The position numbers were made by a program, and so were the translations under genes. 64,000 nt of DNA from Humulus lupulus (taxonomy: Eukaryota > Streptophyta > Magnoliopsida > Rosales > Cannabaceae), in the NCBI RefSeq assembly GCF_963169125.1, contig NC_084802.1, positions 118,238,903 through 118,302,902 on the forward strand. The letters run 5' to 3'. The notes beneath the pieces were generated by a model. That model did not search any database. It worked only from the letters and a program-made list of their open reading frames with translations, and was not told the DNA's origin. Numbering within the stretch: the stretch's first letter is position 1; each line of letters opens with the position of its first letter. This document shows positions 20,487 through 56,834 of this stretch, in pieces.

Positions 20487-22195
20487 ACCCCTCATGCATC
20501 TTCTCTCCCCTCTTCAAAAAGTGAATTCTTCGAGGCTGGTCATTACCCGAGCTCTGTCACGTCCTCAAAGCACGTTTTGGACATCCTATCTTGTCATGGT
20601 TTAAAAGTGTCCATAGAGCTAGTCTGTCAAGCTCCCAATCCTAACGAGGGGAGCAGCAATGCTCTGGGTGAAGGCAACTTGGAGCGAAAATATAAGCTCG
20701 CGGCCTGGATTTGCAACATATGCGAGCTGGGGCTCTTTTGTACTTAAGATATTACTTCAAGAAGTTTACCGACTGGGTCGGTATAGATACCTTCCAATTA
20801 CAGTCCAATTCCTATAGATTCCTAACATCCCTGAGGTCACTATATCAAGAGATGAGGTGGGAGGGGCCCTCGGCATATGAGATTCTCTATCTTTTTTGCC
20901 TCAAGAGTAACCCCACGCGAGTCAACGACGCAGATGGATTCTATTTTCTATCAAGCTAGCCCAGAGAGAGAAGTCTCTTTGAAGATATTCTCAACCATCC
21001 TCCCAACTTTAAGAAGCAGTTCTTTTGTACCAATGGTCTTGACCCCTCCAAATTATACTCATTCCAACACATACATAAGTTCTTGTCTCAGTATTTTTAA
21101 GACTCAATTTTTATCATTTTTGCGCTCGAATGCTTATCCACATTATTGTGTAGCCAACTTTGACCGCTTGATTCCATCCAAGGATATGGTGGATCATCGA
21201 GAAGAAATCTTGAAGCTTCCATATGGCAAGTGGTCCCTCCATTACCTACTTCACAAGCGCAAGCTCTGTCTGTGTGGTCTCCTTGGCGAAGGAGAGTCTA
21301 CAAATGACATTGGGACTCGTAAATATCAAAGATGGGAAGACGTCCATGTCCCTACTCCTTCCAAACCTCTTCCAAGGAAGAAAAAAATGGGTTTGAGCTC
21401 GATACCCTCTACTCTCTCTCCCCCGACGAACCCTCTTACTCAGGGAATGAAGCTCAAGATGAAGCCTCCTTGGGCTCATCTGATGGAGGTAAAGTTATCC
21501 TCAATATGTATGGTTGGTCTCACACTCTTTTTGAACAGAGCCGAATGTCTTAGTTTCTTTTAAGAACCCCGAGAATAACTTTATGAACTGGTCAAGGGTA
21601 GATTATATAGTCCATAGGGATGATAGTTGGCTGGCCAAATCCCAAACAATGTATAGAATTAATGAAGTATGGGAAGGCATATGATTACAATATGGCTTGA
21701 ATGATTGGTGAGATCTCTCTGAGTTACCTCCCACATTGTGAGGTGAGGAACTAGGCCCATCTAAGGAACCCACTCAAGTTATCGAGATATCCTCAGATGA
21801 CTTAGATATTTCTTGGACTTTGAGTTCTTTCAGTTAGGTTTCCCTTCTAATGCTGTACTTTTGTTTCAACTAACTATGAATGAATACTTATGTTGTTTTC
21901 ACTATCTCTTACAGGCAAGATGGATTCGGATCTAGAAAACCTCCTCAGCAGACCCCCTCATCGAAAATTTTGAAACAAGGTCGGGTCTTCTCCAAGAATA
22001 ACAAGCCCACCAAAGAGGCCGAGACTGCATCCGCAGTCTCAAGCCCTCCGCCTGCTTTTTCAAGTCTCGTCGTTGTGACCTTGGCTGAGACTTTTCAATT
22101 GGTCCTCTTAACCTAGACTGCTCCTCCTCCTAAGAAAACCCCTTTATCATACAAAGGGAAAAATACTGTCAACGCCTCGAAGACCCAACCCTCCG
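20487..22195 (+). pseudogene. fragment of a retrotransposon accessory gene ('putative gypsy type transposon' domain)
   Basis: Codons at about 20711-20959 give a segment like the plant 'putative gypsy type transposon' domain (Pfam Transposase_28): LLYLRYYFKKFTDWVG, TFQLQSNSYRFL, EILYLFCLKSNPTR, DGFYFLSS. This corresponds to the middle of exon 1 of the Tat1 antisense gene. Downstream pieces at 21163-21550 and 21880-22116 (Pro/Ser-rich) are likely later exons. Frames shift and stops are frequent. At about 22195 it meets, tail to tail, a similar protein gene on the other strand. No start or promoter can be seen, and the left end abuts LTR-X. Confidence 0.65.
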
Positions 22196-23075
22196 ATGTA
22201 AGGAAATATTCTTTATGATACTTCCCGGGGTTCAACTTGTGGGAGATACCACTAAGGTATGTAGTCCCCCTTTGCCTGTGGTAGAGGTGGGAGAAGCCCG
22301 TGTTGTTGTGGGTGGGATTGCTCCTGAAGTCAAATAAGTAGCGCACCTCGTGAGGGGTAGGCTCATCCTAACCATGCAGGAAGTAGAGAATATATAGTGC
22401 AGACAATGCCTGGATACCATTCGGTGCGATCTGGAATGGGGAGACATTGAAATAATCTGCTATAGATCGGAAGTAGGGATGTAATGGGAGTGTCGCTCCT
22501 ACATGGGCATGATGCCTGGACCAAGCACAGTATGCTCCACCAGGCCTATTGGCTCTCTGATGAGAGCCCGGGCATATCACGCTCGCCCCACTCAAACCCA
22601 AAGCCTCGATGTGTTTGTGGAACGACCCGGGATTAAGCTTTGAAGCTTGGGCAGTGAACCAGGAAGGTTCTTCTTCTCTCCCCTTCTGTTGCTTTTGAAT
22701 GGCCAAGTTTTGAATCACGGTGGCAAACTTCTGAGAGGGTTCTCCTGAAGGAGTTGCAGTGCGGGCGTGATTGCGCTCCACCACCTTCTGCACCACTCTG
22801 CGGGCAACTTGTGGATCTTGGTCCTGGGGAAGTCTGTTAGATTTCTTCACCCTCATCGTCGACTGGGAAGCTTGTTGAAGAAACTGTTCGTCATGAAGAA
22901 GGTACAAGGCTGAGCGGGGAAGGATCCGCTTGAAGCGACGAAGGCGATCCTCGGGAGTGCAACTGGTGGAAGAGTGTGATGAGGAATCGCTGTTTTGAGG
23001 AGTCTCTATTGACTGCGGGATGGATGTATCGGAGTCCGTATGGTTGTCACCTCCCCTATAATCAGAGCGATTCAT
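22196..23075 (-). pseudogene. antisense accessory gene of the LTR2 element ('putative gypsy type transposon' domain)
   Basis: A 235-codon frame starts at 23075 with a Ser/Thr-rich, polar N-terminus (MNRSDYRGGDNH). It reaches the conserved part at about residues 190-230 (ATLPLHPYFRSIADYFNVS, PFQIAPNGIQALSALY) and stops near 22368. The domain continues in another frame from 22346 (YLFDFRSNP, GFSHLYHRQ, PGKYHKEYFLTSEG), so one frameshift separates the halves. The gene lies between the 3' LTR and where pol should be, opposite to the LTR's direction, the same place and polarity as the antisense gene in Tat1 and Tat2. It ends at the junction near 22195. The function of these proteins is unknown. 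Confidence 0.7.
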
Positions 23076-24609: not shown

Positions 24610-25883
24610 TGTTATCCCAAAATTTGAAAATGATGATGTGGCAATAGAATTGACAAGTGGCATGGAATAGTTGGGTGATCTGGCTTAGCAGTAGCCCAGT
24701 ACATCAGTGAAGAGTTTGGACTGCTTAGAGATGTCATAACCAAGCTAAGTGCACCCGAGGAGAATACTTGGGCTAAGGTGTGCCCGGTCGAACCTTGGTC
24801 CAAGGATAGCATTCCAAGAGGTCCGGTCGGACCTTAATCCGAGGAGTCCAAGTGATGGGCTCGGACCCTAGTCCGAGGAGAGGCCACAAGAGGTCCGGTC
24901 GGACCTTGATCCGAGGAGGGGGACAAGTGATGTGCTCGGACCTTGGTCCGAGGAAGGCACTCCAAGAGGTCCGGTCGGACCATGTCCGAGGAGAAGCCCC
25001 ATGCATGTGTTCGGACCTTGATCCGAGGAGAGCCAAGGAGGGTGGCTCGGACCATGTCCGAGGAGAAGCCCCATGAAGTGTGGCTCGGACCTTAGTCCGA
25101 GGAGAGCCAAGAGAGGTGTTCGGACCTTGGTCTGAGGAGAGACTAGAGGTGTGCTCGGACCTTTGTTCGAGGAGACCCCAAGGCTGTGGTCCGAGGTGAG
25201 CCCAAAAAGTGACTGGTCGGACCTTGGTCCGAGGAGCAGTCCAAGGAGTATGGTCCATATGCATGTGTCCAGCATGCATATGTCCGACCAGCACTTGTGT
25301 GTGTCCAGCATGCATGTGTTCGACCAGAAGAAGATATTCATCAAACAAATGGACCAGACTACGTCAAATTCCCAGAAACGGCTTCAGCAAGAATCAGTCT
25401 GGGCATCGCGGGAATCTCTCATTCCTCACTCGAATTGAGGAATCTGTTGTATTTTGAATATTTTGTGTAATTTAAATATAATATGAGTAATAAAATATCC
25501 CGATCCTAGGGGGATATTAGTTTAGGATCCCAAGCCTATAAATAGAGGGTTGATGGGATCAGAAAAGGACTTTTGGCAATTTGAGATTTGGTCTGAGTTC
25601 TAGAGAGAGAAAGTGTGTTTTCCTTGAGAGAGAACCCTTTTTGTATTCCTAAAAATTTACACTGAAGAAACTCAGTTGACACTGGTTCATCTGATCTTGA
25701 GTGTAGATAAAGTAATAAAATCTCTAAGTGGATTAGGCTATTACCGATTGAACAAGGCTGAACCACTATAAAATCTTGTGTGTTATTTATTTTTCTTGAT
25801 TAAACTGTCTGTGTCGTTTAAATTCTCTTGAAGGTTTGTCGTTATTGACGTTCTCACGTCGTTGGCTAAAAACACAGTCAACA
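24610..25883 (+). repeat. 3' LTR of the LTR2 element
   Basis: It starts TGTTATCCC after a polypurine tract and ends CACAGTCAACA (1274 bp). It matches the solo LTR 3028-4473 in reverse orientation. Bases 24790-25260 are a minisatellite of 25-45 bp units (CTCGGACCTTGGTCCGAGGA), with perfect or near-perfect dyads such as GGTCCGGTCGGACC (24820-24833). A TATA box TATAAATA lies at 25537-25544. Long open frames on either strand here are repeat-encoded and not genes. Confidence 0.88.
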
Positions 25884-27154
25884 CTTTGGTTACAATTTTG
25901 TAACTACACAGAAAAATATTACTATAAACTTTATATAATTTAAATATTTTTACAAGGAAGAGTTACTAATATTATAACAATGAGTTATGAGGTCGTAAAA
26001 ATAAGTTCCAAATTAATAACAATGAGTTTCCAATTTCGTAACAATTAAGTGTAAGTTTGTAACAATGAGTTATCAATTTGGTAACAATGAGTTAAACTTG
26101 TAATGATGAATTACCAAATGATTACTAAAATGTTAATTATGATTAGATTAGTTGCTAACAATTTTGTAAACATGAGTTATTAATAATTTTAAAGGGTTAT
26201 TGAAGTAATCACTAATTATTTTGTGACATGTGTTATAAATATATTGTTCAATTACAAGATTAATTACTAGCAATTTTGTAAATTTAGGTTAGTAATACTT
26301 TCAAAATTTTGTAGGATTTATTATCAACAATTATGTTATTGCTTTTTCATATTTTTGTAACTACTTATTTATAATTTGATTTTCCATTCATTTTGTTATA
26401 TTTATTTTTTGTTACAACTTATTTCCATTTTAATGATTTTTTTTATTTATTATCTTACAAAGTTTTTAGTACTTTATATATAAGAAAATATTTATTATCA
26501 TTAAATGGTTTTTTTTTAAATATAACTAATTTCATAAAAAATTATTTAATTAATATATTTAAATTCATATCATTATATATTTACAATTTTTTTTATTAAT
26601 GTTAGTAATTATATTTTATTGAAAAACAAAAATACATTTTTTTGTTTTTATTTTGTGTAGCAAGCTTGGAGTATATAGTCGATTAATGTAGAATTATTTT
26701 TCAGCTGAGTTACTTTTTCGGATTAATATCTCTCCTGTGTATACAACTTTCTACCGTATGTATGTAAATATTTTCATTAACCGTATTTTTTGAATTTTTT
26801 CCCGTATTAAGTATATAGTTGTAAGTTTCCCAATGTAATTTACTCTTATAAAATTCCAGGGTATAGGGTCTTTGGGCTTGTTGTAAATGAGTAAGATTCC
26901 GGGCCTAGACCAACCCAAATACGAAAGCCCGCATTAAAAGGAGGTCGTGGCTTGACGATATGTGTCCGCCTCTACACATTTGTGCTCTATTTTTACATCT
27001 CACGACATTGATGAAATACAATGCCAACTTTGCCTTTTAATACTCGCTACTGTAGAAATACAAATAATATTATAAATAAAAATATGGGTAAGTTCCAAAA
27101 TTAATGCTGAACATTTATTCTAGTGAAAAGGGAAGGAAAAACAAATACAGAATT
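25884..27154. other. AT-rich spacer with a ~21-bp motif repeat
   Basis: I see no gene. Between 25975 and 26110 the motif TAACAATGAGTT recurs at 25975, 26017, 26039 (degenerate), 26060, 26082 and 26101 (degenerate), close to multiples of 21 bp. The rest is AT-rich; a 68-codon frame at 26393-26599 consists of Phe, Tyr, Asn and Ile and reflects composition only. Its right edge, ATACAGAATT (27145-27154), is the MULE target duplication. Confidence 0.6.
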
Positions 27155-28921: not shown

Positions 28922-28926
28922 CATTC
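28922..28926 (+). repeat. target duplication of Tat1 (CATTC)
   Basis: CATTC at 28922-28926 is repeated at 40960-40964, directly outside the two LTRs. Confidence 0.95.
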
Positions 28927-29684
28927 TGTTGACGCGGTTATTCACCAACAGGTAATTTAAGAAAAGAAGAGAAAGGGATTAGTGCTAATAATGAACCGAA
29001 ACAGATATGTGATCATGGAAAATGAAATGGTGACTCAAGACACAGTTTTTAAGTGGTTCAAAGGTTAAAATCCTTCTACTCCACTAGTCAATATTATTGC
29101 TCTATTCTGGGTATATGATTACAGGATATTTCTTACAAGAGATAATCAAACCTTTATCAACTCCTAGGGTCTCCATATTTATAGGAGAAGGCACCTGGGA
29201 GTTGGTAAGAAGATCATCCCGTGTCCTTCTTACCTATCGTATCAAATCTGTGACATTCATGATTAATTCCTAAACCTGACACATAAGTGGGGTCAAATCA
29301 ATAGGTAAGGAGATAATGGGCCTCACGGCCCAACCCAGTCGTGGGTGTCTGAATACGCACGTTCCTGCTGCGTGTCCGAGAAGTCAGGGGCATATCAGAC
29401 ACATGATGTCTGATATGTGCACGTTTACCTTGCGTGTGTTGACTTTACAAAGGGTCATAGTCCCCAGGTCCAGCTCGGACCACGATCTGGATACCTAACC
29501 CAACCTTCTGCCTACAGAGTCCGGACTCAGTCTTAGGCAATCTCGGCGAACCCTTGGGGTTACCCCGAGCTAAGGAGGTACGACCTTATGACGGAAGCTC
29601 CGGTTTTGGGGATGCCCATGAGATAATCATGATTAGGCCGCAGCTCAGCTCGCTAATCAGCCCGTGGGAAAATCAGGGCGTACA
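28927..29684 (-). repeat. Tat1 3' LTR
   Basis: On the plus strand it starts TGTTGACGCGG and ends GGGCGTACA. The dyad ATATCAGACA...TGTCTGATAT near 29393-29417 has lost its CACGTG core here (CACATG). The element's polypurine tract lies next to it at 29685-29704. Confidence 0.95.
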
Positions 29685-29704
29685 TCTGCCCCCCAAGCCC
29701 CTGC
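29685..29704 (-). other. Tat1 polypurine tract
   Basis: On the minus strand it reads GCAGGGGCTTGGGGGGCAGA directly before the 3' LTR. The same 20 bases precede the Tat2 3' LTR. Confidence 0.85.
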
Positions 29705-29917
29705 TCGTGGTATACCACGTCATATAAGGCCACAGTAGGGGCTTTTAGGCTTCCCCATGAACTCTTCACATTCCACCTCTTACGCAGGCGCCTGATACGT
29801 GGAACATCGTGGTTGGTGACGGTACGTCTTACGAGAACCGCATTTAATGGCCTAGCCTATGCCCAGTCGTCGTTTCGTATTTCGAGTGGAGGGCCTCGGA
29901 TCCCTCATCAGGGCCAT

Positions 29918-29985
29918 CCAATGGCCCTCTATACGTGACCCTTCACGTATATAAAAGGGGTGGCCACCCTACGCATGGGCCACCC
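29918..29985 (+). promoter_or_regulatory. promoter of the Tat1 antisense gene
   Basis: A CCAAT box (29918-29922), a dyad ATACGTGA-ccc-TTCACGTAT (29931-29950) carrying two ACGT cores, a strong TATA box TATATAAAAG (29948-29957) and a 12-bp palindrome GGGTGGCCACCC (29958-29969) lie in a row. Transcription would start near 29980. The dyad, TATA and palindrome recur in Tat2 (57519-57556, minus strand). ACGT-core dyads are typical bZIP-factor sites in plants, so stress or hormone control is possible but only inferred. An ATG at 29935 lies upstream of the expected start of transcription. Confidence 0.75.
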
Positions 29986-30679
29986 TTTCATTTGAAATTT
30001 CTCAGAACTTCTTTCCTTCTTCTCTCTTCATCTCAGAAGAAAAAGAAACCCTCTTCTCCGCGACCGCCATTCTCAGTGTTCAAGAAGTTCAGGCGTGAGG
30101 ATTCCTTCGAATCTTTGGAGACAGCAACTCCTACGAAGCTCCAATCTAGGCGACACCTTCACTCACCTCCCAAACAAACACTGTAAGTCTCCTGACCATG
30201 CGTGTTTTGAAAATATTTTTCACTGTAGCTTAGGTAAATATTTACTGTAGCGACATGCAAGGGTTTACTGGTTTTTGTGGGTATGAAGGGTGAAAGCCTT
30301 TTAGGTTAGGGTATTTTGCTGTAGGAAATCGTTTAGGAGTATGGTTTATAGGATGCATTTTCTGGGGAAAATTTATGGGTAGGAGTTTTGGAATTTTGGG
30401 TGCAAAACCAGGTAGCTTAGGGGACACGCTTCACAGGTGGTTTTGCAATTTTTGCCTACCGAAACTTTCCCCCCAAGGAAAATTCTATCCTGACCCTCCT
30501 GACACATGAATTCTGAGTAATCGGGGATCTGTTGGGAGCACAGGCGCGTGTTCATTGAACCGCGTGGTCCCACTCTCCACGGGCTGGGCTTACCTCAGCT
30601 CGTGCAAATAACATTTGATTTTTCCTCATGCTTAGATCGCCTTTTCTGAAATATTTTCTTTTGTTCGCTAGGCGACCAG
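29980..30679 (+). other. 5' untranslated region and intron of the Tat1 antisense gene
   Basis: A pyrimidine-rich leader (about 29990-30040) is followed by a likely donor CACT|GTAAGTCTCC at 30182/30183 and an acceptor TTTGTTCGCTAG at 30670, nine bases before the start codon. The implied intron is about 488 bp. Joining the exons leaves ATG 30680 as the first start in its frame. Confidence 0.65.
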
Positions 30680-33249
30680 ATGGCACCGAAGTGGAACGCT
30701 TCCAAGCACACCATCAGCAGCTCGGCCTCCCAGAAAGACAAAGGAAAAGCGGTGATGCCAGACTCCCCGATCCCCAACTTTGGTCCGGCAGTGGAGCAGG
30801 AGCTCGAGGTGGCTCCTGATGCGTTCTTCGAGGCAGAGAAGATCGTCTCAAAGATCACCGACCAGACGAAGATCAATAAGATATTCCTCTCCCACAACAT
30901 CGCGCTGGGGAGGATGTCAGTGATTGCCCGACCTCCCGCGGAAGGCGAGCGGAGCTGCGCGCCGCTCGACGAGGCATTCGCGGCCTGGAGCGGCGAGCAT
31001 TTCAAGGCGGGGGCATTCCTCCCGCTGGACCAGTACTTCGCTAACTTCCTAAATTATGTGAAGTTGTCCCCATTCCAACTCCCCCCCAACTCTTATCGAT
31101 TGTTGGCGAGGTTGAGACATTTATTTTTGAAGCACGAGTGGGAGGTCCCCACTCCAGCGGACATTTTGTACTTCTTCTGCCTCAAGGCCAGCCCGGATCA
31201 GCGGGGGCGAGGCGACGGGTTTTACTACTTAACCCGATTTCCCAATACGGCTGCGGTCATCAAGCTGTCCAGCCATCCCAACGACTTCAAGGATCAATTC
31301 TTCATGTCGACGGGGTTCAGGAACTTCGAGCTCCACTACTTCAATCGTCCTCGTAAGTTTTTTTCATCCTTAGCTCGTAAGTTAAGTGTTGTTTCAGCTC
31401 CTCCCGTATCCCTTTCTGACTTAGACTAATTCTTCAGCCATCTTCGCAAGGACAGAGAAATCTGTGACCCTCGGGGCCCAATACGAGAAGCTGGCGGGCT
31501 TGCCCCCCAGCGAGAAAGATTATCGCGTGCTTGTAACAGATGAGACGATGGTAGCCTGCAAGCTGATTTTCCCAAATCAGACTTTGAACCTCAGGAGGCC
31601 CCGGGGGCTTCCCCCAGATCGCGACACCAGATCCATCATCGTGGAGGAGGTCGCGGGAGATGAAGATGAGGAGGATGAGGGCGACGAAGTTCCCCTCGTG
31701 AGGAATAGGAAGCGGGCTTTGGAGGTCGTCCGGAGGACGGGCGAGGAGAGGATCCAATCCGGAGCAGCCGCGGGTCCTTCTGGCCAAGGTAACCCTTACA
31801 TGTTTAGGAGTCTAGATAGGGCCATAGCAGACCCCCGGCTGGCTAGGTTCAATCCTAGGCAGCTCGTCCACCGTCACCGAAGTGATCCGGACCTGAACAC
31901 AACCCTGCTCCACTATGTCGACCGGCTCGTGCTGGACTACCAAGATAGCCGGCCTAGGGGTATCGTAGTAGTAGATAACACCCCTGCCTTTAGGTCGATC
32001 CTATTCGAGGAGTATGGGACCAACCTTCGGTCATGGCCATCACTCCGAAGGGGCGCCGTAGCTCCGGGGCTTAGGCAATATGTAGAGGAATCTAGCCCTG
32101 AGTTAGACTCGGACCCCGAACTTGCGCCAGCTCGGGAAGTAATCTACTTAGATTCTTCTTCTAGTCCGGGGGGTAGGATTCCCTTTAGTATACACATACT
32201 TGAATTTTCTTTTTCCCCCCTTGTTTTCGTTTGTGTGATTGCTAACTTGTACTAATCATGTCTTTGCTTTGACAGAAGAGATGTCTCAGCCCGAGGAGAG
32301 CCTGCAAGGTGCGTTCTTCGGGGGGACGTCCAAGCACGCCGTTGGGACCCCCACCAAGTCTCCTGCAAAGGAGAAGGAACAAGCCCCAGCTGCTCAGGGC
32401 GTGGGAGCGGTCCCTCCTGCTGCAGGGGGAAGCAACATGCCTCCACCTCCTCCGCGAGCTCCGGCCACCGTCCGGGACACAGGAGCGGAGCTTGGGACCT
32501 CGGCGATTGTACCCTCCGAGGTACGCATCCCAGTCAATCCCCAGGATCTGGAGAAGATCCCAGAGGCCTTCCGGGGAACGGTGTATGAGTCGGCGAACTA
32601 CGCCGTCAGCCACATCTACAAGTTCAACGAGAAGGAGCTTCAGTCCATCGAGACAATGAGCCCGGTGGGCGTGCTAGAGTCTTCACTGGGCATGACCCTA
32701 ATGGTAAGCTGACTTTACCCTTTCATGGCTTTTTATTACTGCACTTTGCCTTGTTTTTTCTCTCTTTTTTCTAAGGCAATTGTATTTTCAACTTCGCAGA
32801 GCTTTGTTGCCCTTCATCGGAGCATCGCCAGGACCAAAACTCAGCTTAAGGACATGAGGAGCAAGCACCAGACTACCCTGCAGGTGGCTAAGGATGCCTT
32901 GGCGGCCTCGCAGGCCAAGTTGGAAAAAACCCGCTCGAAGGTCCAAGAGCTCGAGACTTCCCTCGCCACCTCGCGGATAGACCTAGATGTCGCGAAGGCT
33001 GAGGCTCAGGCCGCCCTAAAGGCCGAGCAGACAACTTCGGAAAAGTCCCTGGAAGACCTTTTCTACCATTGTTGGGCCTACAATCTAGACGCTGACTTCT
33101 CCTTCCTATCAGCGAGCCTCTGGGAGCGCTTGCTGGTGAAGTTCCAAGCTCGCCTTGATAAGGAAGCGCCCTCCAAGGTCGAGGAAGGCTCTGGCACAGC
33201 TGAGCAAGGCGAGACGGTGACCTCCAAGGGGCCACCTGGCGGAGCCTAG
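30680..33249 (+). CDS. Tat1 antisense gene, 4 coding exons, 761 aa, 'putative gypsy type transposon' domain plus coiled coil
   Basis: Exons are inferred at 30680-31352, 31438-32172, 32276-32703 and 32800-33249. Donors are GTAAGT, GTAGGA and GTAAGC; acceptors are TTCTTCAG, TTTGACAG and TTCGCAG. The pieces sum to 2286 nt, exactly 762 codons with the stop, and no exon holds a stop. Residues about 105-225 match the Transposase_28 type (FLPLDQYFANFLNYVKLS, PFQLPPNSYRLL, DILYFFCLKASP, DGFYYLTRFP). Exon 2 has an acidic run (DEDEEDEGDE), exon 3 is Pro/Ala-rich, and residues about 619-703 (QLKDMRSKHQTT to EKSLEDLF) look like a coiled coil. The gene converges on pol of the same element. A second possible donor at 31376/31377 keeps phase and would add 8 residues. 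The molecular function of this family is unknown. Splicing is inferred from sequence only. Confidence 0.82.
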
Positions 33250-33860
33250 GGCGTTTCTTCTCTTGTGCCCTTCACTATTTTTAAGATTTTTTGTGTAACC
33301 TTTGCATGAGGTGCTTCCACCTCGAGACAATTTGATTCATCGTTTTTAATTGATCCTCTTTCTTGCCCTTACACATTTTGGTTACAATTTTTTGAAAACT
33401 TAGTCCGTGTTAACTTTTATCCATATCTCGAGCTCTTTAGGAAGAACAACGATCAATAGATTTAAATCAACTTCTATGTTTTATGACCCGGTTATGACCA
33501 GGAACTTATTTTGAAAACTTAGTTTGCGTTAACTTTTATCCATATCTCGAGCTCTTTAGGAAGAACAACGATCAATAGATTTAAATCAACTTCTAAGTTT
33601 TATGACCCGGTTATATCCAGGATAGGACTTTGTTAGCGTTTAATCCTTATCAATATCTCGCGTTTTTTAAGAAAAACAACGGTCAATCGATATGAATCAA
33701 CTTCTAAGTCATTAAGAAGACCTGGTTATATCCAGGTACCATATGCCCCCCAAGTAACTAAAGGGTCTTTCGTGGTTACTTTAGAATACACTTGCAAACA
33801 TGTACAAAAGATGATCTTCATTAATACATAAAGAATGGCCTTCCAGGCCTTACAAGTGAA
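33250..33860. repeat. spacer between antisense gene and pol with ~119-bp tandem repeat (about 3 units)
   Basis: From about 33395 to 33745 a unit containing GTTAACTTTTATCCATATCTCG, a CAACGATCAATAG stretch and ATGACCCGGTTAT recurs with starts near 33409, 33528 and 33638. The first two units are nearly identical; the third is diverged. Tat2 has four units in the same place. No gene is seen. It is where the two convergent transcripts would end. Confidence 0.85.
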
Positions 33861-36800
33861 TCATTGATAATATTTCTTTAAGTGGATGGCGTTCCAAGTC
33901 CGCGGGACCGCCCCTCCATCAAGCTGAGCTAACTTATAAGTTCCCTCCTTAATGATTTCGATGACCTGGTACGGTCCTTCCCAATTTGATCCCAAGACTC
34001 CATCTTTGGGATCTTTCCCGGCCAGGAAAACTCTCCTTAGGACCAAGTCGCCAACGGTAAAGGCACGGTTTTTGACTTTGGTGTTGAAGTAGCAAGTGAT
34101 TTTCTGCTGATAATGGGCGAGCTGGAGTTACGAATCCTCTCGCCTTTCGTCAACTAGGTCAAGGGAATTGCACAGGAGCTCGTGGTTGCGGTCCTGGTCG
34201 TAAGATTGGACCTTATGCGAAAGCACCTTAACCTCCACGGGGAGGACTGCCTCACTCCCAAAGGTTAGGGAAAAAGGAGTATGACCCGTAGGAATCCGAT
34301 GCGAGGTCCGGTATACCCATAGGACTAGGGGAGCTATTCTGGCCAGACCCCTTTCGCATCATCTAATCTCTTCTTGAGGCTCGACTTTAGAGTCTTGTTG
34401 ACAGCTTCGACCTGGCCATTCGCCTGAGGATAGGCCACGGAGGAGAAGCTTTTCACAATTCCGTACCTTTCACAAAACTCGGTGAACAGGTCGCTGTCGA
34501 ACTGAGTACCATTTTCAAAGACAATCTTCTTGGGCAGGCCGAATCGACAGACAATGCTTTTAACCACGAAGTCAAGCACTTTTTTGGACGTTATTGTTGC
34601 CAAAGGTTCTGCCTCAGCCCACTTCGTAAAGTAGTCGATGGCTACCACGGCGTAACGGACCCCGCCCTTTCTAGTGGGGAGGGCGCCAACCAAGTCTATC
34701 CCCCAAACGGCAAACGGCCATGGGGACGAGATCATCTTTAGCTCAACTGGAGGAGCTCGGGCAACTGCGGCGAATCGCTGGCACTTGTCGCACTTCTTCA
34801 CGTATGAGATTGAGTCTTTGGATAGAGTTGGCCAGTAATACCCCTGCCTCAGGACCTTTAAGGCCAAGCTCTGCCCCCGAGTGTGGTCTCCGCAAAAACC
34901 TTCGTGCACCTCCTGTAGGATGGCCTTTGCTTCATCTGGAAGAACACATCGTAGGAGAGGCAGGGAGTGCCCACGCCGGTATAACACCCCATCTACTATC
35001 GTATACCTCGGAGCTCGATAGAGTACTCGCCGTGCATCATTACGCCCTTCAGGTAGCTTTCCCTTGACGAGATACTCAAGGATGGGGGTCATCCAGGTCG
35101 GCCTGGCGTCGATCATCTCGACCTCCGTCCTTACTTCTTCTATACTTGGTTTCTCCAAGAATTCCACTGGTACTAACCCCAAGGTCTCTGTCTCCCCAGA
35201 GGTGGCGAGCTTGGCAAGAGCATCTGCATTAGCGTTCTACTCCCGAGGTATCTGTTCGTTCGAGCCTCGCTCAAACGCGGACAGCTCAGATTTTACCTTT
35301 GCCAGATAGGCGGCCATCTTGGGTCCCCGTGCTTGATATTCGCCCAGAACCTGGTTTACCAAGAGCTGGGAGTCACTGAAGCACTGGACGGAGCCCGCCT
35401 TCAACTCCTGGGCTATCCTCAGCCCGGCCAACAAAGCTTCGTATTCGGCCTCGTTGTTGGAGGCCTTGAACCCGAATCTCAGTGCCGAGTGGAATCTATG
35501 TCCCTCGGGGGATATCGAAATGATTCCAGCTCCGGAGCCGTTCTCGTTGGATGAACCATCCACAAAGATCCTCCACGACGCCTGGGACAAGGTGACCTGG
35601 GGTGAGTCTTCTGCGGGATCCTCCTGGAATCCCGTGCATTCTACCATAAAATCGGCCAGGGCCTGACCTTTTATAGCAGTTAGCGGAGTGTACAGAATCT
35701 CGAACTGACTGAGTTCGATGGCCCACTTTAACAAACGTCCCGATGCTTCAAGTTTTTGCAAAACCTGCCTTAAAGTCTGATCGGTCATGACGTGTATCGA
35801 GTGGGACTGGAAGTATGGCCTGAGCTTTCGCGAGGCCATGATAAGGCAGAACGCCAATTTCTCCATCAACGGGTATCGGGATTCAGCTCCGAGAAGTCTC
35901 TTGCTGATGTAGTAGACTGGTCTATGAACTCGGTCTTCTTCACGTACCAACACGACACTAGCTACATCCTTAGTGACAGCCAGGTAGAGAAAAAGAGGCT
36001 CTCCTGCTTTGGGTTTGGATAATACGGGTGGCTCAGCCAGATGTGCCTTCAGGTCGAGGAATGCGCTTTCGCACTCTTCTGTCCATTCGAACTTCTTGCT
36101 TCCTCGGAGCAGGTTGTAGAATGGAAAACACTTATCGGTGGACTTGGAAATAGACCGATTGAGGGCTGCCACTCTTCCTGTCAGGCCTTGGACATCTTTT
36201 CGCAACCTGGGCGAGGGAAGCTTGAGCAGTGATCGGATCTTGTCGGGGTTTGCTTCGACTCCAAAAGTGCACTTCTGCGGATTAAGTCTCATGCCATACT
36301 CCCGTAGTATCTTAAAACATTCTTCCAGGTCAAAAACATGGTCGTCGGTAGTCTTTGACTTGACTAGCATGTCATCAACGTATACTTCCATGTTTTTTCC
36401 GATCTGGTCCGCGAACATTCTATTGACTAACCTTTGGTAGGTAGCTCCGGCGTTCTTTAGCCCGAACGGCATGACCTTGTAACAATAAACGTTTGTCGGG
36501 GTCATGAAGCTGGTGTGTTCCTGGTCCGCCGGATTCATGGCGATCTGATTGTAGCCTGAGTATGCGTCCATAAAGGACATGAGCTCGTGCCCCGCCGTGG
36601 CATCTACCAGCTGATCAATCCTCGGCAGTGGAAAACAATCCTTGGGGCAAGCTTTATTCAGGTTGGAGAAGTCTATGCAGGTCCACCATTTTCCGTTGGG
36701 CTTCGGGACCAGCACGGGGTTGGCAACCCATATTGGAAACTTGGCTTCACGGATAAAGCCGCATTTCTTGAGCCGGGCCACCTCTTCCTCCAAGGCTTCA

Positions 36801-38311
36801 GCCCGAGCTGTTCCTAGGCGTCTTTGCTTCTGGGACTTGGTGGGAACGCTTTTATCCAGATGAAGTGTATGCATGATGACACTCGGGCTGATTCCCACCA
36901 TGTCCTCATGGGACCAGGCAAACACGTCCAGATTATCCCGCAGAAATTTAGTCAGCTCCGCCTTCCTCTTGCTATAGAGGTTTTTCCCGAGCTTGACCGT
37001 CCATGATGGGTTCTGCGGATCAATGTTCACTTCCTCGAGCTCCTCAATCGCCTGGAGCTCAGATCTGTCCTCGCCTATTCGGGGGTCAATATCTTCACTT
37101 AAGACGACATTTTCCCCTTCGGCGCTTTGAGGTTTTTCAATCTCAGGATTGGCTAAGGGTTCCTGAGATTCCTCTCCACCACCTTGAATGGCCATTGCCA
37201 GCTGCCCGGGTTTAGGTTTTCCCTTCATAGAAATGCTGTAGCATTCCCTGGCAGCGAGCTGATCGCCATGAACAGTGCATATTCCCGTGGAAGTAGGAAA
37301 TTTCATCGCGAGGGGGCGAATGGAAGTGACGGCCTCAAAATCCATGAGCGTAGGTCGCCCCAAGATCGCGTTGTATGCAGCGGAGCAATCGATGACCATG
37401 AATTCGAGGAGCTTGGAGACTATCCGAGATCCTTCTCCTAGGGTGATCACCAGCTCGATCGTCCCTATTGCTGCTGATCCCTCTCCCGAAAAACCATACA
37501 GCATCATGGAGGTCGTCTTTAGCTCAGCGATGGTTAAACCCATCTTTTCTAACTTGGATCGGAACAGGAGGTTCACAGAGCTCCCGTTGTCGATCATCAC
37601 CCTCCTCACTCTTCGATTGGTGAGCTGAACTACCATGACCAAAGGGTCATTGTGAGGGAATTTGACATGGCCCGCATCTTCCTCCGTAAAAATGATCGGT
37701 TGTCTCTCCAACCGCTGCTGTTTTAACTGGCGCTGCTCCGGGACGAACTCTACTCCGTTATGAGCCTTTAGTTCGTTCACGTATCTCTTCAGGGTTCCCC
37801 TGCTCGTGCCGGCCATGTGCGAACCCCCAGAGATGGTGGATATCTCTCCTCCAACCACGGGAGGAGGGACGTCCTGATCTACCCGAGGCCCGGGCTGACT
37901 GGCCGGGACTTCTGGAGCAGGTCGACTTGCTGGAACCCTGTTCCGCGCGTATTGAGCCAAAGGGCCGGCTCGGATGAGAGTCTCGATCTCATCTTTTAGA
38001 TGCCTACAATCGTCGGTATTGTGGCCAACTTCATTATGAAAACGGCAAAACTTGGAGGTGTCTCTCTTCCCCTTATGATGCTTTAATGGCTCCGGCCTTT
38101 TCCAGGGGACTCGAGTAGAGTTGGCTAGGAAGATGTTCTCCCTAGACTGAGTGAGCTCTGTATAAGTCGCGAAGACGGGCTTGAATTTTTCTACGGACTT
38201 ATTCTTCTTTTGGCCGTGTTGACCGTTTTCGCCATTTCCCTTTCTTTTGCCTCCACCGGGCTGGTGGTTCTGTGAGACATTTTGGGTCGCTACCACGACC
38301 TCCGTCCCCAC
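33861..38311 (-). pseudogene. Tat1 pol: protease, reverse transcriptase, two RNase H domains, integrase
   Basis: The first 1024 codons (38311-35237) are open. They carry a degenerate knuckle (CRFHNEVGHNTDDC, residues 89-102), protease MIDNGSSVNLLF (Asp 241), reverse transcriptase (about 515-690, YVDD at 644-647), its own RNase H (about 770-890), and a second, archaeal-type RNase H with FVDGSS (D918), NNEAEYEA (E954) and FSDSQ (D980). A TAG follows at about 35236. Integrase (35182-34334) has HEGF..GDH...CDKC, GIDLVG, and FENGTQF, where the middle catalytic Asp is replaced by Glu (34514-34516), then NGQVEAVNK. Stops near 34333 and 34139, and a 1-base loss, break the C-terminus; its GPYQVIEI module ends at 33861. 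A 48-bp in-frame deletion removes part of the reverse transcriptase thumb after residue 685. Confidence 0.93.
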
Positions 38312-40146
38312 TCTAGCGGTCTGTTCGGGGACCTAGCTGGTCCCTACAGCTGAGGCTTCGGCCTCCTCCAAGTTAATCCATTCTTGGGCCCTGTTAAGGA
38401 ATTCGTTAACCGAGCTGACTCCCTTCCTTTGTATATCCTTCCAGAGATCTCCTCCAACGAGGATTCCAGTTCTCATGGCCATGAGCTTGGAGCTATCTTC
38501 CGCGTCTCTGGTTTGAGCAGCGACGTTCGTAAATCTGCTCAGGTAGGCCTTCAGAGTCTCACCGGGCTGCTGCCTCACGTTAGCCAGGGAGTCGGCCTGA
38601 ACACGGGCGGCCTGGGAGGCTCTGAATGCCCTTTTGAAGTCTGCCGAGAAAGTCTTCCAGAAGCTGATTGACTGTCTTTTACTTTGCTTGAACCACTGCC
38701 TGGCAGGTCCAGTCAGTGTGGAAGGGAATATTAAACATCTCAGCTTGGGGCCAATGTTGTGGGCCATCATTAGGGTGTTGAACATCCCTAGATGGTCCGA
38801 TGGGTCTCCGTCCCCATTGAACTTTGACAAGTGCGGCATACGGAAACCAGATGGGTATGCCGTTGCTGCTATGCTGGGGGCGAAGAGTTCCATCTCGTCC
38901 CCTGAATCATATTCATCTTTTTCTTTTTCTGACAGGAGCTTCCTCATCAGCTCCTCCATCTGAGTCAGGCGATCGAGGGTCTGGTCCTGATGTCCTTGGT
39001 TATTCCGGGGCTGTTCAACAGCTCCGGATCCATTGTACATATTTGGTGGGTTATTGCCCCTCCTTTCTTGAGATAGGTTATTTGGGGCATTCCCTCCTTA
39101 CGTACTTCGGACAGGGCCCCCCCTGAGCGAGCGTGGCCATCTCCTCCTGCTGGTTCCCCCCTATGGGAGTTAAGGCGATCTCGCAGGTCGCCTCCCTGGG
39201 TGGTTTGATGACTTTGTGCCGAACTCAAACGCTGACGCAGGTCTCCCCCAGAGAGATCACTCCGGCGACTGCCGGTCCAGTGGCTTCTGCTAGATAGGCT
39301 TGGAGTCCACCCTTGGTGGGGATGATCTGGGCTTTCCCTTGGCGCCCTGCTACGCCGGGAAGGTCCAGCTGATGGCGGGTTTCTCCTACTACTCCCATGG
39401 GCTGGGATATCTCAGACGGGCCGAGGAGGAGACGAATACCTGATTGGGGAAGGAGGATGCCTGACTGGAGAGGCGATCCTAGTTCCGTCAGGACGGATCA
39501 AGTTTGGTGGCGGCCTTTCGGCCCTGCCAACCTGCTGGTCCCGCGTCTGACGATCTGGACGAGGCGCAGGTCGGTTGTTGGGGACGTGCCGATGCCGCGA
39601 GCCCTCCCCGGATCTCCTTCGGGAATTTCCTCGAGCTCCCCTGGGCGCTCTCGAGGATGGCTGGGAGCTAGGAGTTGACGTTCTGACCGAATGACTGTAT
39701 TGCTATTGCCTGGCTTCAGGAATTTCTTCGAAGCTTGCCTCTCGGTGATGTGATGAAGGAGTGGAATTGGCTGTCGGAAGTTTATCCGACCGGCTATGCC
39801 TGGACCGGTTACCCCGGCGAGACTTAGGAGCCTCGCCTTGCCTCTCTCCGACGTTAACGTCGGTTGTGAGAGGGGGTAGTCGGGCCAGCACATCCTTGAT
39901 CTGCTGGTTAGCTATTGCTAGCTGGCTCCTCAACTGAGCGTTCTCCATCTCCACCGCCGTGTAATAACACGGGTTCGGATTAGGTGGCCGGGGGGTCGAA
40001 CTTCCGGTGTCATCTTGGCCCACCGGCTGCTTTCCTGGCCGCTGCTGGGTCTCAGGAACTTGTTCACCAGGGGTGGCAGTATGATGAGCCTCCTGCCCAT
40101 CATGCTGCTCTGTCTCGTTACCGTGCCTGGATTGAGTAGTCACCAT
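38312..40146 (-). pseudogene. Tat1 gag
   Basis: It starts at 40146 (MVTTQSRHGNET). The N-terminal part is low-complexity, rich in Gln, Pro, Arg and Ser. The capsid-like core at 39040-38333 contains MPHLSKFNGDGDPSDHL, ARQWFKQSK and LKAYLSRF, the 'retrotransposon gag' pattern. A CAG-to-TAG change stops the frame near 39702, a small indel near 39090 shifts it, and another TAG lies at about 38332 just before the 1024-codon pol frame. In Tat2 the corresponding gag and protease share one frame, so gag-pol was probably a single polyprotein. Confidence 0.88.
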
Positions 40147-40180
40147 AATTGGATGTTTGCGATAGCACTAACCAAACTTA

Positions 40181-40201
40181 CTCTCAATGAAAGCACCAAA
40201 C
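40181..40201 (-). other. Tat1 primer-binding-site region
   Basis: Directly inside the 5' LTR the minus strand reads TTTGGTGCTTTCATTGAGAG. The same bases follow the Tat2 5' LTR at 47016-47035. I cannot name the matching tRNA. Confidence 0.5.
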
Positions 40202-40959
40202 TGTTGACGCGGTTCTTCGCCAACAGGTAATTTAAGAAAAGAAGAGAAAGGGATTAGTGCTAATAATGAACCAAAACAGATATGTGATCATGGAAAATGA
40301 AATGGTGACTCAAGACACGGTTTTTAAGTGGTTCAAAGGTTAAAATCCTTCTACTCCACTAGTCAATATTATTGCTCTATTCTGGGTATATGATTACAAG
40401 ATATTTCTTACATGAGATAATCCAACCTTTATCAACTCCCAGGGTCTCCATATTTATAGGAGAAGGCACCTGGGAGTTGGTAAGAAGATCATCCCGTGAC
40501 CTTCTTTCCTATCGTATCAACTCTGTGACATTCATGATTAATTCCTAAACCTGACACATAAGTGTGGTCAAATCAATAGGTAAGGAGATAATGGGCCGCA
40601 CGGCCCAACCCAGTCGTGGGTGTCTGAATACGCACGTTCCTGCTGCGTGTCCGAGAAGTCAGGGGCATATCAGACACGTGATGTCTGATATGTGCACGTT
40701 TACCTTGCGTGTGTTGACTTTACAAAGGGTCATAGTCCCCAGGTCCAGCTCGGACCACGATCTGGATACCTAACCCGACCTTCGGCTTACAGAGTCCAGA
40801 CTCAGTCTTAGGCAATCTCGGCGAACCCTTGGGGTTACCCCGAGCTAAGGAGGTACGACCTTATGACGGAAGCTCCGGTTTTGGGGATGCCCATGAGATA
40901 ATCATTATTAGGCCCCGGCTCAGCTCGCTAATCAGCCCGTGGGAAAATCAAGGCGTACA
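40202..40959 (-). repeat. Tat1 5' LTR with promoter
   Basis: It matches 28927-29684. A minus-strand TATA box (plus-strand TATTTATA, 40451-40458) lies downstream of a dyad ATATCAGACA/TGTCTGATAT near 40668-40692 that includes the G-box CACGTG. The outer end is bounded by CATTC. Confidence 0.93.
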
Positions 40960-42222
40960 CATTCCAACTTTAGCCATGATAAGTTGACTGAGTTGATCGA
41001 GCCTTGGACTAGGATGCTTCCATCTTTACTCAACGCTATTGGTATGTTTAAAGGACACCCCAGGTTGAAAATAGCTAGATCGAAGAATACCGTTCCAAAC
41101 TTTGATTGGCAGCGCATGTCCACTGATATTGTCCAATAGTCTAGAACCAGGTATTTAGACGTACTAACTTCAGGAAAGTAAGCACGGGACCACTTATCAA
41201 AACCCATGCCTTCTAGGTATTGAGAAATAGCTGGGTCTTTTTATTTGATTTTTTTAAAGTGAGTTTGGAACTCAGATTTCCGAAAAGCATATGCCACATT
41301 ATACGTCAACACATGACAATGATTAGTCTTGAATTTAGGAACCACACTCATACTAATATGGTGGTAGCAAGCACCGTGATATGCATCAAGGAAAATAGTT
41401 TCCAAGGCATGTGTAATACTTGCATTCCTGTCAGATACAAATGTCAGGTCCTCAACTTCCATAATCGCTTCCTTTTAGCTTTGACATGAAATACTTCAAA
41501 GAATCATGATTCTTACTATCCACAATACCAACTATAACTGGATATGGATGGTTATTTGCATCCAGCGCGATTGCATATAACTTCTGCTCACCGTATTTTG
41601 TCTTTAAAAAAGTGTCTTCCACACATAACACAAGACGACACGTACAAAACCCTCTTCTACTAACTCCAAGTGAGAAACAGCAATATTTGAACCGATCCTC
41701 CTAAGTGACAAAATCTGTCAACGTCCAGAGATTTTTATGTTGAAACATGAACAGGTACAATGGTAACTTCTGGTAGGATGCTTCCAGTGTCCCTCTGACA
41801 TAAGAAAGAGCCTTCTCTCGACATCTCCAAGCTTTTCCATATGACAACTCAATGCCATAATAATTCTAATTTCTTCTCTTATGCTGTTTGCCATGTACGC
41901 ATTCGATCCAGTCTGATATTTTTTCTTTATGCAATGACCAATAACTCAAGGTGCAGCTTGGCGATGGCCTTTATGTTGGAGGTCAAGTGAGCAAGTATGT
42001 TTATTGGTGAAACAAGTTATCTCGAACATATCAGATTCAGGCATTCTCTTCCCCCTCAATCTCCACTTACAATTAGGATCCTTGCAAGTGATATACCAAA
42101 CTTTAGTACCTGACTTCTTCACCACAAACTCGAAGTTCTGCTTCATTGCATACAAGTGTGCCTTCGTCTTCAACTCTAACTTATTCTCAAAAACCTTCCC
42201 AACTTCTATTACTCCACAACTC

Positions 42223-44288
42223 TGTAGTATCCCATAATTTTACTTAGCTAGATAGTAGTAGTAGTGGTAGTAGTAAGCATAGTTTGTAATATGTTAGTTG
42301 TCCTGGATTTTGGTTCAAGCCGGGACTTAGTTGGAAACCCATAGCAACAGTTATGGATTTTAGAAGTTTAACCTATAGTTTAGAAATATTAATTATAACA
42401 TAAGGTTTGATTAATATTGCTGGTCTTTAAAATATTATTTATTATAACCTAAGGTTTAGAGAATTATTAAGAGCATGACACTTGTCATAATCATGTTTAT
42501 TAAGGATTTAAGTATTTTGATGTATAGTTTAATTAAAAGAAAAATCTAGAAGCTCTAGAATCTTCCAGCAGCTGTTAGGATCACGTTTAGACTCAGTTAA
42601 AGTTGTTTAATCATTTCAAATTATGCTAAAAAAGTGCAAATACATGTTTGATATATCAACGTATGCCGATATATCACAGCTATAAGGGCCGATATATCGC
42701 CTTCGGGAGATACGGAAAACACGCCGACTTTGCACGAACGATCGAACGGGGCTTGGGAATATGGGGGAGGCGATATATCGCCTATAGGGGGCGATATATC
42801 GGCTCCTACTCACATTTTTGGAAGTTTGTGATTTTTAAATTTTAAAATAGCCTTAACCACTTAGACCTGCCTTTGAACGATTTTGACCGAGTTCTGGGTG
42901 TCTGTTGAACGAAAATTCAAATCTTTTTCATTTTATATTCATTTATTTATTCAAATTAAAAGGGGTTAGTTTTACTCCTTGAACTCTATAAATAGGACCT
43001 AGTACTCAGCCATTTTCTTCATTCTTCAAGCATTGTTCAGAGCCTCCAAGTTGCTAAGGTTACTATAGAGAGAAACACTTGGGTTTTGGGTTAAAAGCTT
43101 TATCAATCTAGGCTTTTCTAAACACTTGGGAAGTGAGATATAGTGAGATTTCGGTATCGAGGTTTAGATCAATTCATAAGATCATTCAAGGTATTCTTAT
43201 CCTTAAGTTTAGTTTTTCATAGTTCTTTAGTTTTCTTTTATTTTCTTTCAAATCCCAACTCTGGTTTATGATTCTTGAATAGGTGTTTAAGTTTCTTGAA
43301 ACTTAAGGTTTTTTTCGGTAAGTTTCTACTCGGATGGTTTAGTTTTCTTTTCATCTCTTTTCTTTAGAAACTCACCATTCTTGCTGTTGGTTTTATGAGT
43401 ATTCCAAATCCCGTTCTTGTCTCCATATCCCGATTTTTGGTAAGGAAAATAGGTTAGATTATATATTAATATGTTTATGTTATGATATGTTTTATGCTAT
43501 GATATGCATATGTATAAATATGTTGTAGTCCTTGGGCATATGACTTGCTTAGATAGCAAGCCCCAAGAATATGTTTTGTAGTCGTTTGGGCATATGACTT
43601 GCTTAGATAACAAGCCCCAAGAATTTTTATCATTTTCATGGTTTAGAGTTATGATTTACCCTACTTCGATTAGTAGACAGAGGACCTAGATGGGTTATCA
43701 TATACTACCATGTGATCTAACCTACCTCAATTAGTAGACAGAGGACCTAGATAGTTTTATCACATGCCATGTTAATGAGTTAATGGCCATTAATATTGTA
43801 GTCCTATATGATATATGTTTTTATAGTCATATTTTTTATAGTATATGTATATGATATAATCTTATGTTTATGATTTATGATATATGTTGTTAGTAGATTT
43901 TCCTTGCTGAGCATTAGGATCATTCCTTTATTTTTAGCTTAATGCAGGAAAATGAATATGGAAGGCGGAAAGATTCATGGCAGTTTGGCTTGTGTGTTGA
44001 GGATGAATGGACTGCGTGAACGATCGAGGATGACGTTATTTTTAAGTCTTTTGAATTATGTTTTGATGTATTTTTCACAATTAGTATTTAATTAATTTAA
44101 GTTTGTTTTTATGTATTAAACAATGGGTACCCATACTGTATTTTATATTTCATATTTTACTTTGTATTTTGCACAATATTTATTTTGGGGTTTTAAATAA
44201 AGATATTTCTTATGAATGTTTCCCAAAATAGTAGCTATGTCTAGTAGTTTTAATGGTCCAATGTCTTAGAAATAGTTGGGTCATTACA
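42223..44288 (+). repeat. Tekay-type solo LTR with target duplication AACTC
   Basis: It starts TGTAGTATCCC and ends GGGTCATTACA (2066 bp), and is flanked by AACTC at 42218-42222 and 44289-44293. It is the same family as 5667-7490. It keeps the palindromes CGATATATCG at 42690-42699, 42771-42780 (within GGCGATATATCGCC, 42769-42782) and 42792-42801, a TATA box at 42987-42994, and a tandem GCTTAGATAGCAAGCCCCAAG repeat near 43540-43620. A second tandem motif (TAGTAGACAGAGGACCTAGAT) is duplicated at about 43670-43755. Confidence 0.94.
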
Positions 44289-45911: not shown

Positions 45912-46280
45912 ATACAGAATTACTTAAATATGGAAAAGTCAGTCCCAATGAAATTATTGAGCACAATATTGATAGTTTTCTCAACCAATTACGAACTCAA
46001 TACCCCTAAAAAAATTATGAACTCGCTAATAATAATATATATCTACTAGGAAGAAGCGTACAATGCATGTTTCTTTAGTTTTAAAGTTATAAACACCCTT
46101 ATTCAAACATGTATTTATTTTTATTATATTTTTTAATTATCATATAAATAAACAATATCATAAAAATAAATAAAAGTTGTTTAATATAATGTATGACATA
46201 AATGTATTAAAAAAATTAGGGCAAAACATTGTCGATAAATTTAATAAAAATTGGTTCACTTTTTAAAATATATATATATA
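45912..46280. other. AT-rich spacer
   Basis: It begins with the MULE target duplication and ends in an (AT)n run whose last five bases (ATATA, 46276-46280) are the Tat2 target duplication. I see no gene or motif. Confidence 0.6.
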
Positions 46281-47014
46281 TGTACGACCTGATTTTCCCA
46301 CGGGCTGATTAGCGAGCTAAGCTGCGGCCTAATCATGATTATCTCGTGGACATCCCCAAGACCGGAGCTTTCGTCATAAGGTCGTACCTCCTTAGCTCGA
46401 GGCAACCCAAGGGTTCTCCAAGATTGACTAAGACTTGAGTCCGGACTTTGAAGGCCGTACCACGAGCTGGATATGGAGGCTACGACCCCTTTGTAAAGTC
46501 AACACACGCAAGGTAAACGTGCATATATCAGACATCACGTGTCTGATATGCCCCTGACTTCTCGGACACGCAGCAGGAACGTGCATATTCAGACACCCAC
46601 GACTGGGTTGGGCCATGCGGCCCATTATCTCCTTACCTATTGATTTGACCACACTCATGTGTCAGGTTTAGGAATTAATCATGAATGTCACAGAGTTGAT
46701 ACGATAGGTAAGAAGGTCACGGGATGACCTTCTTACCAACTCCCAGGTGCCTTCTCCTATAAATATGGAGACCCTGGGAATAAATAAGGGTTGGATTATC
46801 TCTTGTAAGAAATATCATGTAATCATATACCCAGAATAGAGCAATAATATTGACTAGTGGAGTAGAAGGATTTTAACCTTTGAACCACTTAAAAACCATG
46901 TCTTGAGTCACCATTTCATTTTCCAAGATCACATATCTGTTTCGGTTCATTATTAGCACTAATCCCTTTCTCTTCTTTTCTTAAATTACCTGTTGACGAA
47001 GAACCGCGTCAACA
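46281..47014 (+). repeat. Tat2 5' LTR with promoter
   Basis: It starts TGTACGACC and ends ACCGCGTCAACA. The dyad ATATCAGAC...GTCTGATAT (46525-46549) contains the G-box CACGTG (46536-46541). A TATA box TATAAATA lies at 46758-46765, about 215 bp downstream. A dyad TTGACG-N9-CGTCAA closes the 3' end. Confidence 0.94.
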
Positions 47015-47070
47015 GTTTGGTGCTTTCATTGAGAGCAAAGTTCGATTAGTGTAGTTGCAAACATCCAACT

Positions 47071-50142: not shown

Positions 50143-50156
50143 GCGAGGACAGATCT

Positions 50157-56781: not shown

Positions 56782-56834
56782 CTGGTCGCCTAACGAACAA
56801 AAAAAAAGATTTTAGAAAAGGCGACCTAAGCATG

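Follow-up and report, generated by a model that had tools for sequence, protein, structure and literature searches.

A probable spliced antisense gene in a Retand-like long terminal repeat retrotransposon of Humulus lupulus

Does a plant retrotransposon carry a genuine, intron-bearing gene on the strand opposite to gag-pol, and what might such a gene do for the element? The question is raised by a 64,000-nucleotide stretch of the Humulus lupulus genome (NC_084802.1, positions 118,238,903 to 118,302,902), hereafter the window, in which direct repeats found by self-BLAST delimit two related long terminal repeat (LTR) retrotransposons in opposite orientations, copy A (28926-40962) and copy B (~46280-58535). 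In copy A, an antisense gene occupies the space that separates pol from the 3' LTR. What antisense accessory genes do for plant retrotransposons is unsettled in the field, and a 2020 review asks that antisense and spliced transcripts be looked for (PMC7264820). We place at roughly 60% the probability that it is a true accessory gene belonging to a Retand-type element, transcribed antisense and spliced to one protein that is, less surely, a DNA-acting regulator. For comparison, the best 40 of 9394 first-look exon 1 candidates in the 2.48-Gb genome were scored (94-100% identical); one was copy A itself, and the other 39, a non-random sample picked by exon 1 likeness, are called the close copies. 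The features of the gene and its host element are as follows.

28926-40962, minus strand: copy A, a 12-kb Ty3/gypsy LTR retrotransposon; LTRs at 28926-29685 and 40201-40962, gag-pol on the minus strand.
29948-29957, plus strand: TATA box TATATAAAAG, 263 bp inside the inner edge of the 3' LTR; identical in copy B and unchanged in 34 of the 39 close copies.
30183-30671, plus strand: intron of the 5' untranslated region (5'-UTR, leader); takes out 8 ATGs; GT and AG present in 39 of 39 close copies.
30680-31352, plus strand: coding exon 1, holding a TRP28-like stretch at residues 106-152.
31438-32172, plus strand: coding exon 2, with the end of the first conserved region, an acidic run and the second conserved region; matched by a Humulus protein, P0001.
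32276-32703, plus strand: coding exon 3, Pro/Ala-rich and least constrained, with a conserved block near residues 561-580.
32800-33249, plus strand: coding exon 4, with a long helix (probable coiled coil), a C-terminal conserved motif and the stop codon.

The TATA box, the 5'-UTR intron and the four phase-matched exons that an initial annotation had proposed from the letters alone were all confirmed on the sequence: the coding exons add up to 762 codons including the stop, the intron phases are 1, 1 and 0, and introns 1-3 have the donors GTAAGT, GTAGGA and GTAAGC and the acceptors CTTCAG, TGACAG and TCGCAG. Once the 5'-UTR intron is taken out, the leader holds no ATG from 29978 to the start of the antisense open reading frame (ORF); a single ATG at 29975-29977 lies less than 20 bases from the TATA box and is probably upstream of the transcription start. 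Using a simple splice rule (donors GT[AG][AG]G, acceptors YAG after a pyrimidine tract, up to three introns of 70-130 nt each), we obtained a longest open spliced frame in 30680-33249 of 761 codons on the plus strand and 143 on the opposite strand, while 300 dinucleotide shuffles of this stretch gave a mean of 149 codons (standard deviation, sd, 40) and a maximum of 350. The annotation's claim that chance fragments would not yield such a frame thus holds, and a chance ORF was rejected. We are highly confident that this is a real spliced gene.

Does the element keep the encoded protein under selection? Copy B carries the same gene in a broken state.

54138-56781, minus strand: antisense gene in copy B; splice sites intact but frame lost through two nonsense codons and an exon 1 insertion of 20 nt.

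The splice dinucleotides of copy A and its TATA box are all retained in copy B. Besides the 20-nt insertion, the insertions and deletions (indels) between the two genes measure 45 and 9 nt in exons, 1, 1, 2, 1, 1 and 2 nt in the coding introns and 1, 22 and 1 nt in the leader intron, none of the intron indels being a multiple of three. Third positions hold 111 of the 228 coding differences (null 74, sd 6.5, maximum 95 in 1000), and the ratio of nonsynonymous to synonymous divergence (dN/dS) is 0.30 for the spliced protein (null 0.71, sd 0.10, minimum 0.40 in 1000), with 0.18, 0.26, 0.65 and 0.38 for exons 1-4 and 0.19 for gag-pol as a control. A 27-base G run at 56354-56380 in copy B exon 1 coincides with the 20-nt insertion, which is probably slippage at a C-rich codon stretch. 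The 45-nt in-frame block (exon 3, at window position 32323) is absent from copy A, present in copy B and found with the same length in 29 of 39 close copies; P0001 too has additional residues at this site, among them a basic KKPR run. Judging by the absence of this block, a nuclear-localisation-like patch may be missing from copy A.

Selection was also examined among the close copies, after six of the 39 (L020, L027, L032, L036, L039 and L046) had been removed as rearranged in exons or introns. Splice dinucleotides are present in 34-39 of the 39, depending on the site, which proves little because young copies retain sites anyway. No intronless version was seen among the 39: having introns was a condition for the 33 copies that passed the filter, and the six dropped ones are rearranged. 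The nonsynonymous-to-synonymous ratio (N/S) among the 33 was 2.20 for variants confined to a single copy, 1.64 for those in two copies and 1.05 for those in at least three, and shared (at least three copies) and single-copy variants differed strongly (Fisher p 1.1e-7; with CpG transitions excluded 1.01 vs 2.24, p 9.5e-6). Before removal of the six rearranged copies the values were 2.82, 2.70 and 1.23, respectively. Single-copy variants are mostly decay after insertion, and variants in at least three copies are mostly inherited. The outcome of the dN/dS check on young copies that the initial annotation had suggested is therefore divided: the shared variants look constrained, and the single-copy variants look near-neutral, as is expected of decay after insertion. 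Comparisons of this kind show that the spliced protein was held under purifying selection in the lineage from which new copies arose; the protein thus mattered during multiplication of the element. Contrasting single-copy with shared variants within one genome provides direct evidence of the importance of a protein to its element.

Are the gene and its introns kept over longer distances? We compared the window gene with eight diverged copies from another subfamily, the best 8 loci among 253 matches to P0001 in the genome; at least four of them (L070, L071, L074 and L075) are frame-shifted in exon 1, and codons were compared column by column anyway. Identity was 0.74-0.76, 0.69-0.70, 0.61-0.65 and 0.54-0.61 in exons 1-4 and 0.43-0.57 in introns. 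Overall dN/dS was 0.205-0.237, with 0.12-0.16 in exon 1, 0.15-0.20 in exon 2, 0.35-0.51 in exon 3 and 0.24-0.33 in exon 4; the accessory gene proposed initially is borne out with its stated layout, and the ratios are clearly below 1 against both copy B and the diverged copies. The start codon is present in 8/8 and the stop codon in 7/8 diverged copies, donors 1, 2 and 3 read GT in 7/8, 7/7 (one gap) and 7/8, acceptor 3 is AG in 8/8, and acceptor 2 is shifted 3 nt upstream, with CAG in 6/8. The compared stretches reach ~630 nt upstream of the start codon, short of the TATA region; the leader intron acceptor is AG in 7/8, in poorly alignable sequence. These alignments suggest that intron positions are kept between subfamilies. 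Furthermore, the Humulus lupulus protein P0001 (532 aa) is 49% identical to residues 262-747, unbroken over junctions 2 and 3, and is without an exon 1 counterpart. Most of the listed genome matches to P0001 break near its residues 223 and 370, which are junctions 2 and 3, and this supports those introns; three listed matches cross the residue 370 point, with stops inside. The best-scored genome match to P0001 is just 85% identical.

Two decayed relatives of exon 1 were found elsewhere in the window.

20714-21100, plus strand: decayed exon 1 relative, 43% identity; its frame shifts where junction 1 falls.
22176-22622, minus strand: second decayed exon 1 relative, 30% identity; its frame 22368-23075 is above the PF04195 cut-off.

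The frame shift in the first of these (remnant 20714-21153) falls at junction 1 with the same split proline codon. Junction 1 is the least independently supported of the three, because acceptor 1 is AG in only 4/8 diverged copies, and the remnant has AT for its donor and only weak similarity beyond the junction. The two TRP28-type exon remnants belong to other families and lie in opposite orientations with ~1.1 kb between them.

Several observations weigh against a functional spliced gene. A whole frame occurs in 0 of the 33 close copies, with a mean of 1.0 frameshift and 2.3 nonsense codons per copy; all six coding splice dinucleotides are intact in just 23 of them, and six nonsense variants are each common to at least three. 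Exon 1 alone, though the most constrained exon between subfamilies, shows a weak contrast among close copies (N/S 1.90 single vs 1.56 shared). The dN/dS ratio between copies A and B depends on the yardstick, since dS (0.23) exceeds intron divergence (0.09-0.16), and dS against the eight diverged copies (~1.2-1.35) is close to saturation. To these are added the count for acceptor 1, which was made from the alignment, the aligned leader intron donor, GT in 3/8 diverged copies, a domain score below its cut-off (PF04195, Transposase_28 or TRP28, at residues 106-152: 19 bits, E 0.0017, cut-off 26.2 bits) and an AlphaFold2 run on exon 1 with 8 alignment rows that gave no usable model (mean predicted local distance difference test, pLDDT, 33).

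What kind of protein would this be? The best conserved part across subfamilies spans intron 1 (residues ~100-280) and includes the TRP28-like stretch; after it come an acidic run that varies, another conserved region (~301-460), a Pro/Ala-rich part that also varies, a conserved block (~561-580) and the coiled coil, which changes fast. PF04195 scored 22.6 bits in L069 and 13 in L073, with no match in L068 or in P0001 (which has no exon 1), and 27.3 bits in the alignable remnant frame 22368-23075; at the genome level, the cut-off was exceeded by 150 of 150 scored places (of 37092 first-look candidates). The TRP28-like stretch of the window protein is best labelled a diverged relative of PF04195 and a non-member by score, because the window copy falls below the cut-off while the alignable remnant passes it. 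For P0001, AlphaFold2 with 6 rows gave a mean pLDDT of 45 and modelled a long helix alone with some confidence (residues 369-491, mean ~74-92 over 391-480); Fourier analysis of the window copy found no clear coiled-coil periodicity. Basic patches are present in the antisense protein, and no Pfam match to bZIP was found with E up to 1. Protein searches with the whole query matched P0001 alone (7996 candidates scored, those that shared the most words with it), with residues 325-470 P0001 was the sole match among 1128 candidates, and with residues 45-280 there was no match at E up to 1e-3 among 1487. Exon 1 had three matches among PDB sequences, all at E 0.98-0.99, and 51 pattern matches in a genome contigs database, none confirmed; for exon 2, none of 90 pattern matches in viral contigs was confirmed.

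To which group does the host element belong? On the minus strand of copy A, Pfam detected gag, reverse transcriptase, two RNase H-type domains and integrase, with a sub-threshold protease match; RT_RNaseH (778-877) and RVT_3 (924-1031) lie within a single frame, so a second RNase H domain is present. Such a domain is a mark of the Tat group. The long gag-pol frame (34334-39097) is interrupted by in-frame stops, and LTR-pair divergence is 2.9% in copy A and 2.7% in copy B, with ~6% between the LTRs of A and B. The LTR of ~760 bp, the internal region of 10515 bp and the pol-to-3' LTR distance of 4648 bp in copy A all fall inside the ranges given for Retand elements (315-1194, 7380-12869 and 2933-6566 bp; PMC11963269), and copy A would fit a Retand-type (Tat-group) LTR retrotransposon. 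Elsewhere in the window, the stretches 3559-4473 and 24610-25888 are repeat-rich inverted relatives (86-88% alike) with short tandem units containing TCGGAC, and a further segment is repeated at 5667-6631 and 42223-43199 (78% alike).

How could an intron-bearing gene persist in a retroelement and act there? Its own promoter would drive transcription toward pol, and the antisense transcript would be spliced to encode a single protein joining the TRP28-like domain to the coiled coil. Retrotransposition proceeds through genomic RNA of the opposite polarity, in which the introns of the antisense gene escape splicing, and this explains how a gene with introns persists in such an element. The protein might then oligomerise via the coiled coil, enter the nucleus and bind DNA of its own element, perhaps at the 119-bp repeats described below, regulating transcription or silencing. 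That the gene works through its protein seems very probable from the codon constraint; a nuclear protein acting on the element's own DNA is proposed tentatively, by analogy, because the product of maize Grande gene23 is reported to be nuclear (PMC7264820) and DNA binding by TRP28 is predicted in the literature (PMC11963269).

Among other explanations, the strongest competitor, though on balance unlikely, is a protein that acts on RNA or particles as a Rev-like or nucleocapsid helper, binding, exporting or packaging genomic RNA: retroviral accessory proteins named in PMC7264820 and PMC11963269 work in this way, and the coiled coil and basic patches would suit an RNA role as well as a DNA role, while the points against it are indirect, namely the nuclear gene23 product and the predicted DNA binding just mentioned. 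Rather improbable is that the antisense RNA itself does the work, pairing with genomic RNA and feeding or tuning small-RNA silencing. An RNA-pairing role for such elements is listed by the review (PMC7264820), and apart from the window's own copy no whole frame turned up among the 33 close copies; however, constraint tracks the amino-acid code, which a pairing RNA would not need, and exons are more alike than introns. Introns and an own promoter would be expected of a captured gene, yet a host gene picked up by the element and merely carried along appears very improbable, as relatives occur in two subfamilies and two decayed remnants, in similar placement or as loose pieces, selection goes on after capture, and the seen parts of the review and the 2025 survey report no likeness outside transposable elements (PMC7264820, PMC11963269), our own protein searches being the sole look at host genes. 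A chance set of open fragments linked by arbitrary GT-AG pairs has nothing but the freedom of the simple splice rule in its favour and is practically dismissed by the shuffles, the selection and the intron positions kept between subfamilies.

Where on its own element could a DNA-acting regulator bind? A noncoding repeat adjoins the gene.

33390-33740, no strand assigned: tandem array of a 119-bp noncoding unit, lying where the antisense gene and pol end facing each other; 3 units, the last degenerate.

Array size ranges from 2.7 to at least 10.6 units over 22 arrays (those of copies A and B plus 20 from the set of 39 close copies), two of which extend to the limit of the compared stretch, so that their unit counts are lower bounds. 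In the diverged subfamily, unit matches lie at the same place in 7 of 8 loci (none in L071), six of them with a 121-bp period. Full diverged units, chosen by BLAST and hence biased toward similar ones, are 0.71-0.82 identical to the window unit. The corresponding values are 0.57-0.68 in introns, ~0.60 when units are shuffled, 0.75-0.77 in exon 1 and 0.57-0.61 in exon 4. By this measure, conservation of the unit between subfamilies seems close to that of the best-conserved exon, and the unit's conserved blocks reappear in the degenerate last unit. With a unit of 119 nt, coding in the repeat is impossible. Dyad symmetry in the unit was no better than chance (0.74 of 300 shuffles match the observed arm), and an Rfam scan of 29600-34400 gave nothing at gathering threshold. 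Just 3' of the stop codon, at 33290-33320, a short GAGG...CCTC inverted repeat with differing loop and stem recurs in both window copies and in most of the eight diverged ones; the antisense transcript may have its 3' end there. The conserved noncoding repeat provides a concrete candidate binding target; that the protein acts through the array is nevertheless doubtful. It is likewise an outside chance that protein and array form a self-recognition module protecting or activating chromatin of the own family, by analogy a retrotransposon counterpart of the VANC anti-silencing system; if true, array length would tune the response of each copy.

How does this gene relate to known systems? The initial annotation had seen a candidate for an undescribed system, a view that does not stand in this form, since both Grande gene23 (PMC7264820) and antisense TRP28 ORFs of Retand elements, reported in 97% of Retand clusters (PMC11963269), are already published. 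The gene resembles the Retand TRP28 ORFs in its antisense position between pol and the 3' LTR, its TRP28-like stretch, the element dimensions and the tandem repeats of the region. It differs in that the survey treats unspliced ORFs of at least 600 bp, the word intron being absent from the text seen, whereas here a single gene holds the TRP28-like region and the coiled coil in its exons; moreover, the survey calls the repeats highly variable, whereas the 119-bp unit is conserved between two subfamilies (PMC11963269). In a survey limited to unspliced ORFs the TRP28 and coiled-coil parts would appear as two different proteins, and the multi-exon model tells which protein to express, tag and fold. 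Maize Grande gene23, likened here by description only, is an antisense gene in the same pol-to-3' LTR position with its own promoter (here a putative one, with a TATA box and leader intron), and its product is reported to be nuclear, while the copy A protein is known from sequence alone (PMC7264820). VANC of the VANDAL DNA transposons, also likened by description, shares an intron-bearing accessory gene and noncoding tandem repeats of changing copy number; it belongs to another element class, and its targets vary considerably among related elements, in contrast to the conserved unit here (PMC5735166). The gene is like HBZ of human T-cell leukaemia virus type 1 (HTLV-1) in being antisense and spliced and in its coiled-coil end (predicted here). 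HTLV-1 HBZ is spliced, has its promoter in the 3' LTR and encodes a bZIP protein. In copy A the putative promoter lies in the internal region, with the TATA box inside the LTR edge, and the protein has no bZIP match. HBZ is itself named as an antisense gene of a retroelement in the survey (PMC11963269). In the literature surveyed (mostly titles and abstract openings, few subscription papers, the gene23 original lying outside), we met with no spliced antisense gene described from these elements. Thus the spliced structure joining a TRP28-like region to a coiled coil looks new, in a comparison that stops short of the gene23 exon structure, and so does the conserved noncoding 119-bp repeat beside the antisense gene.

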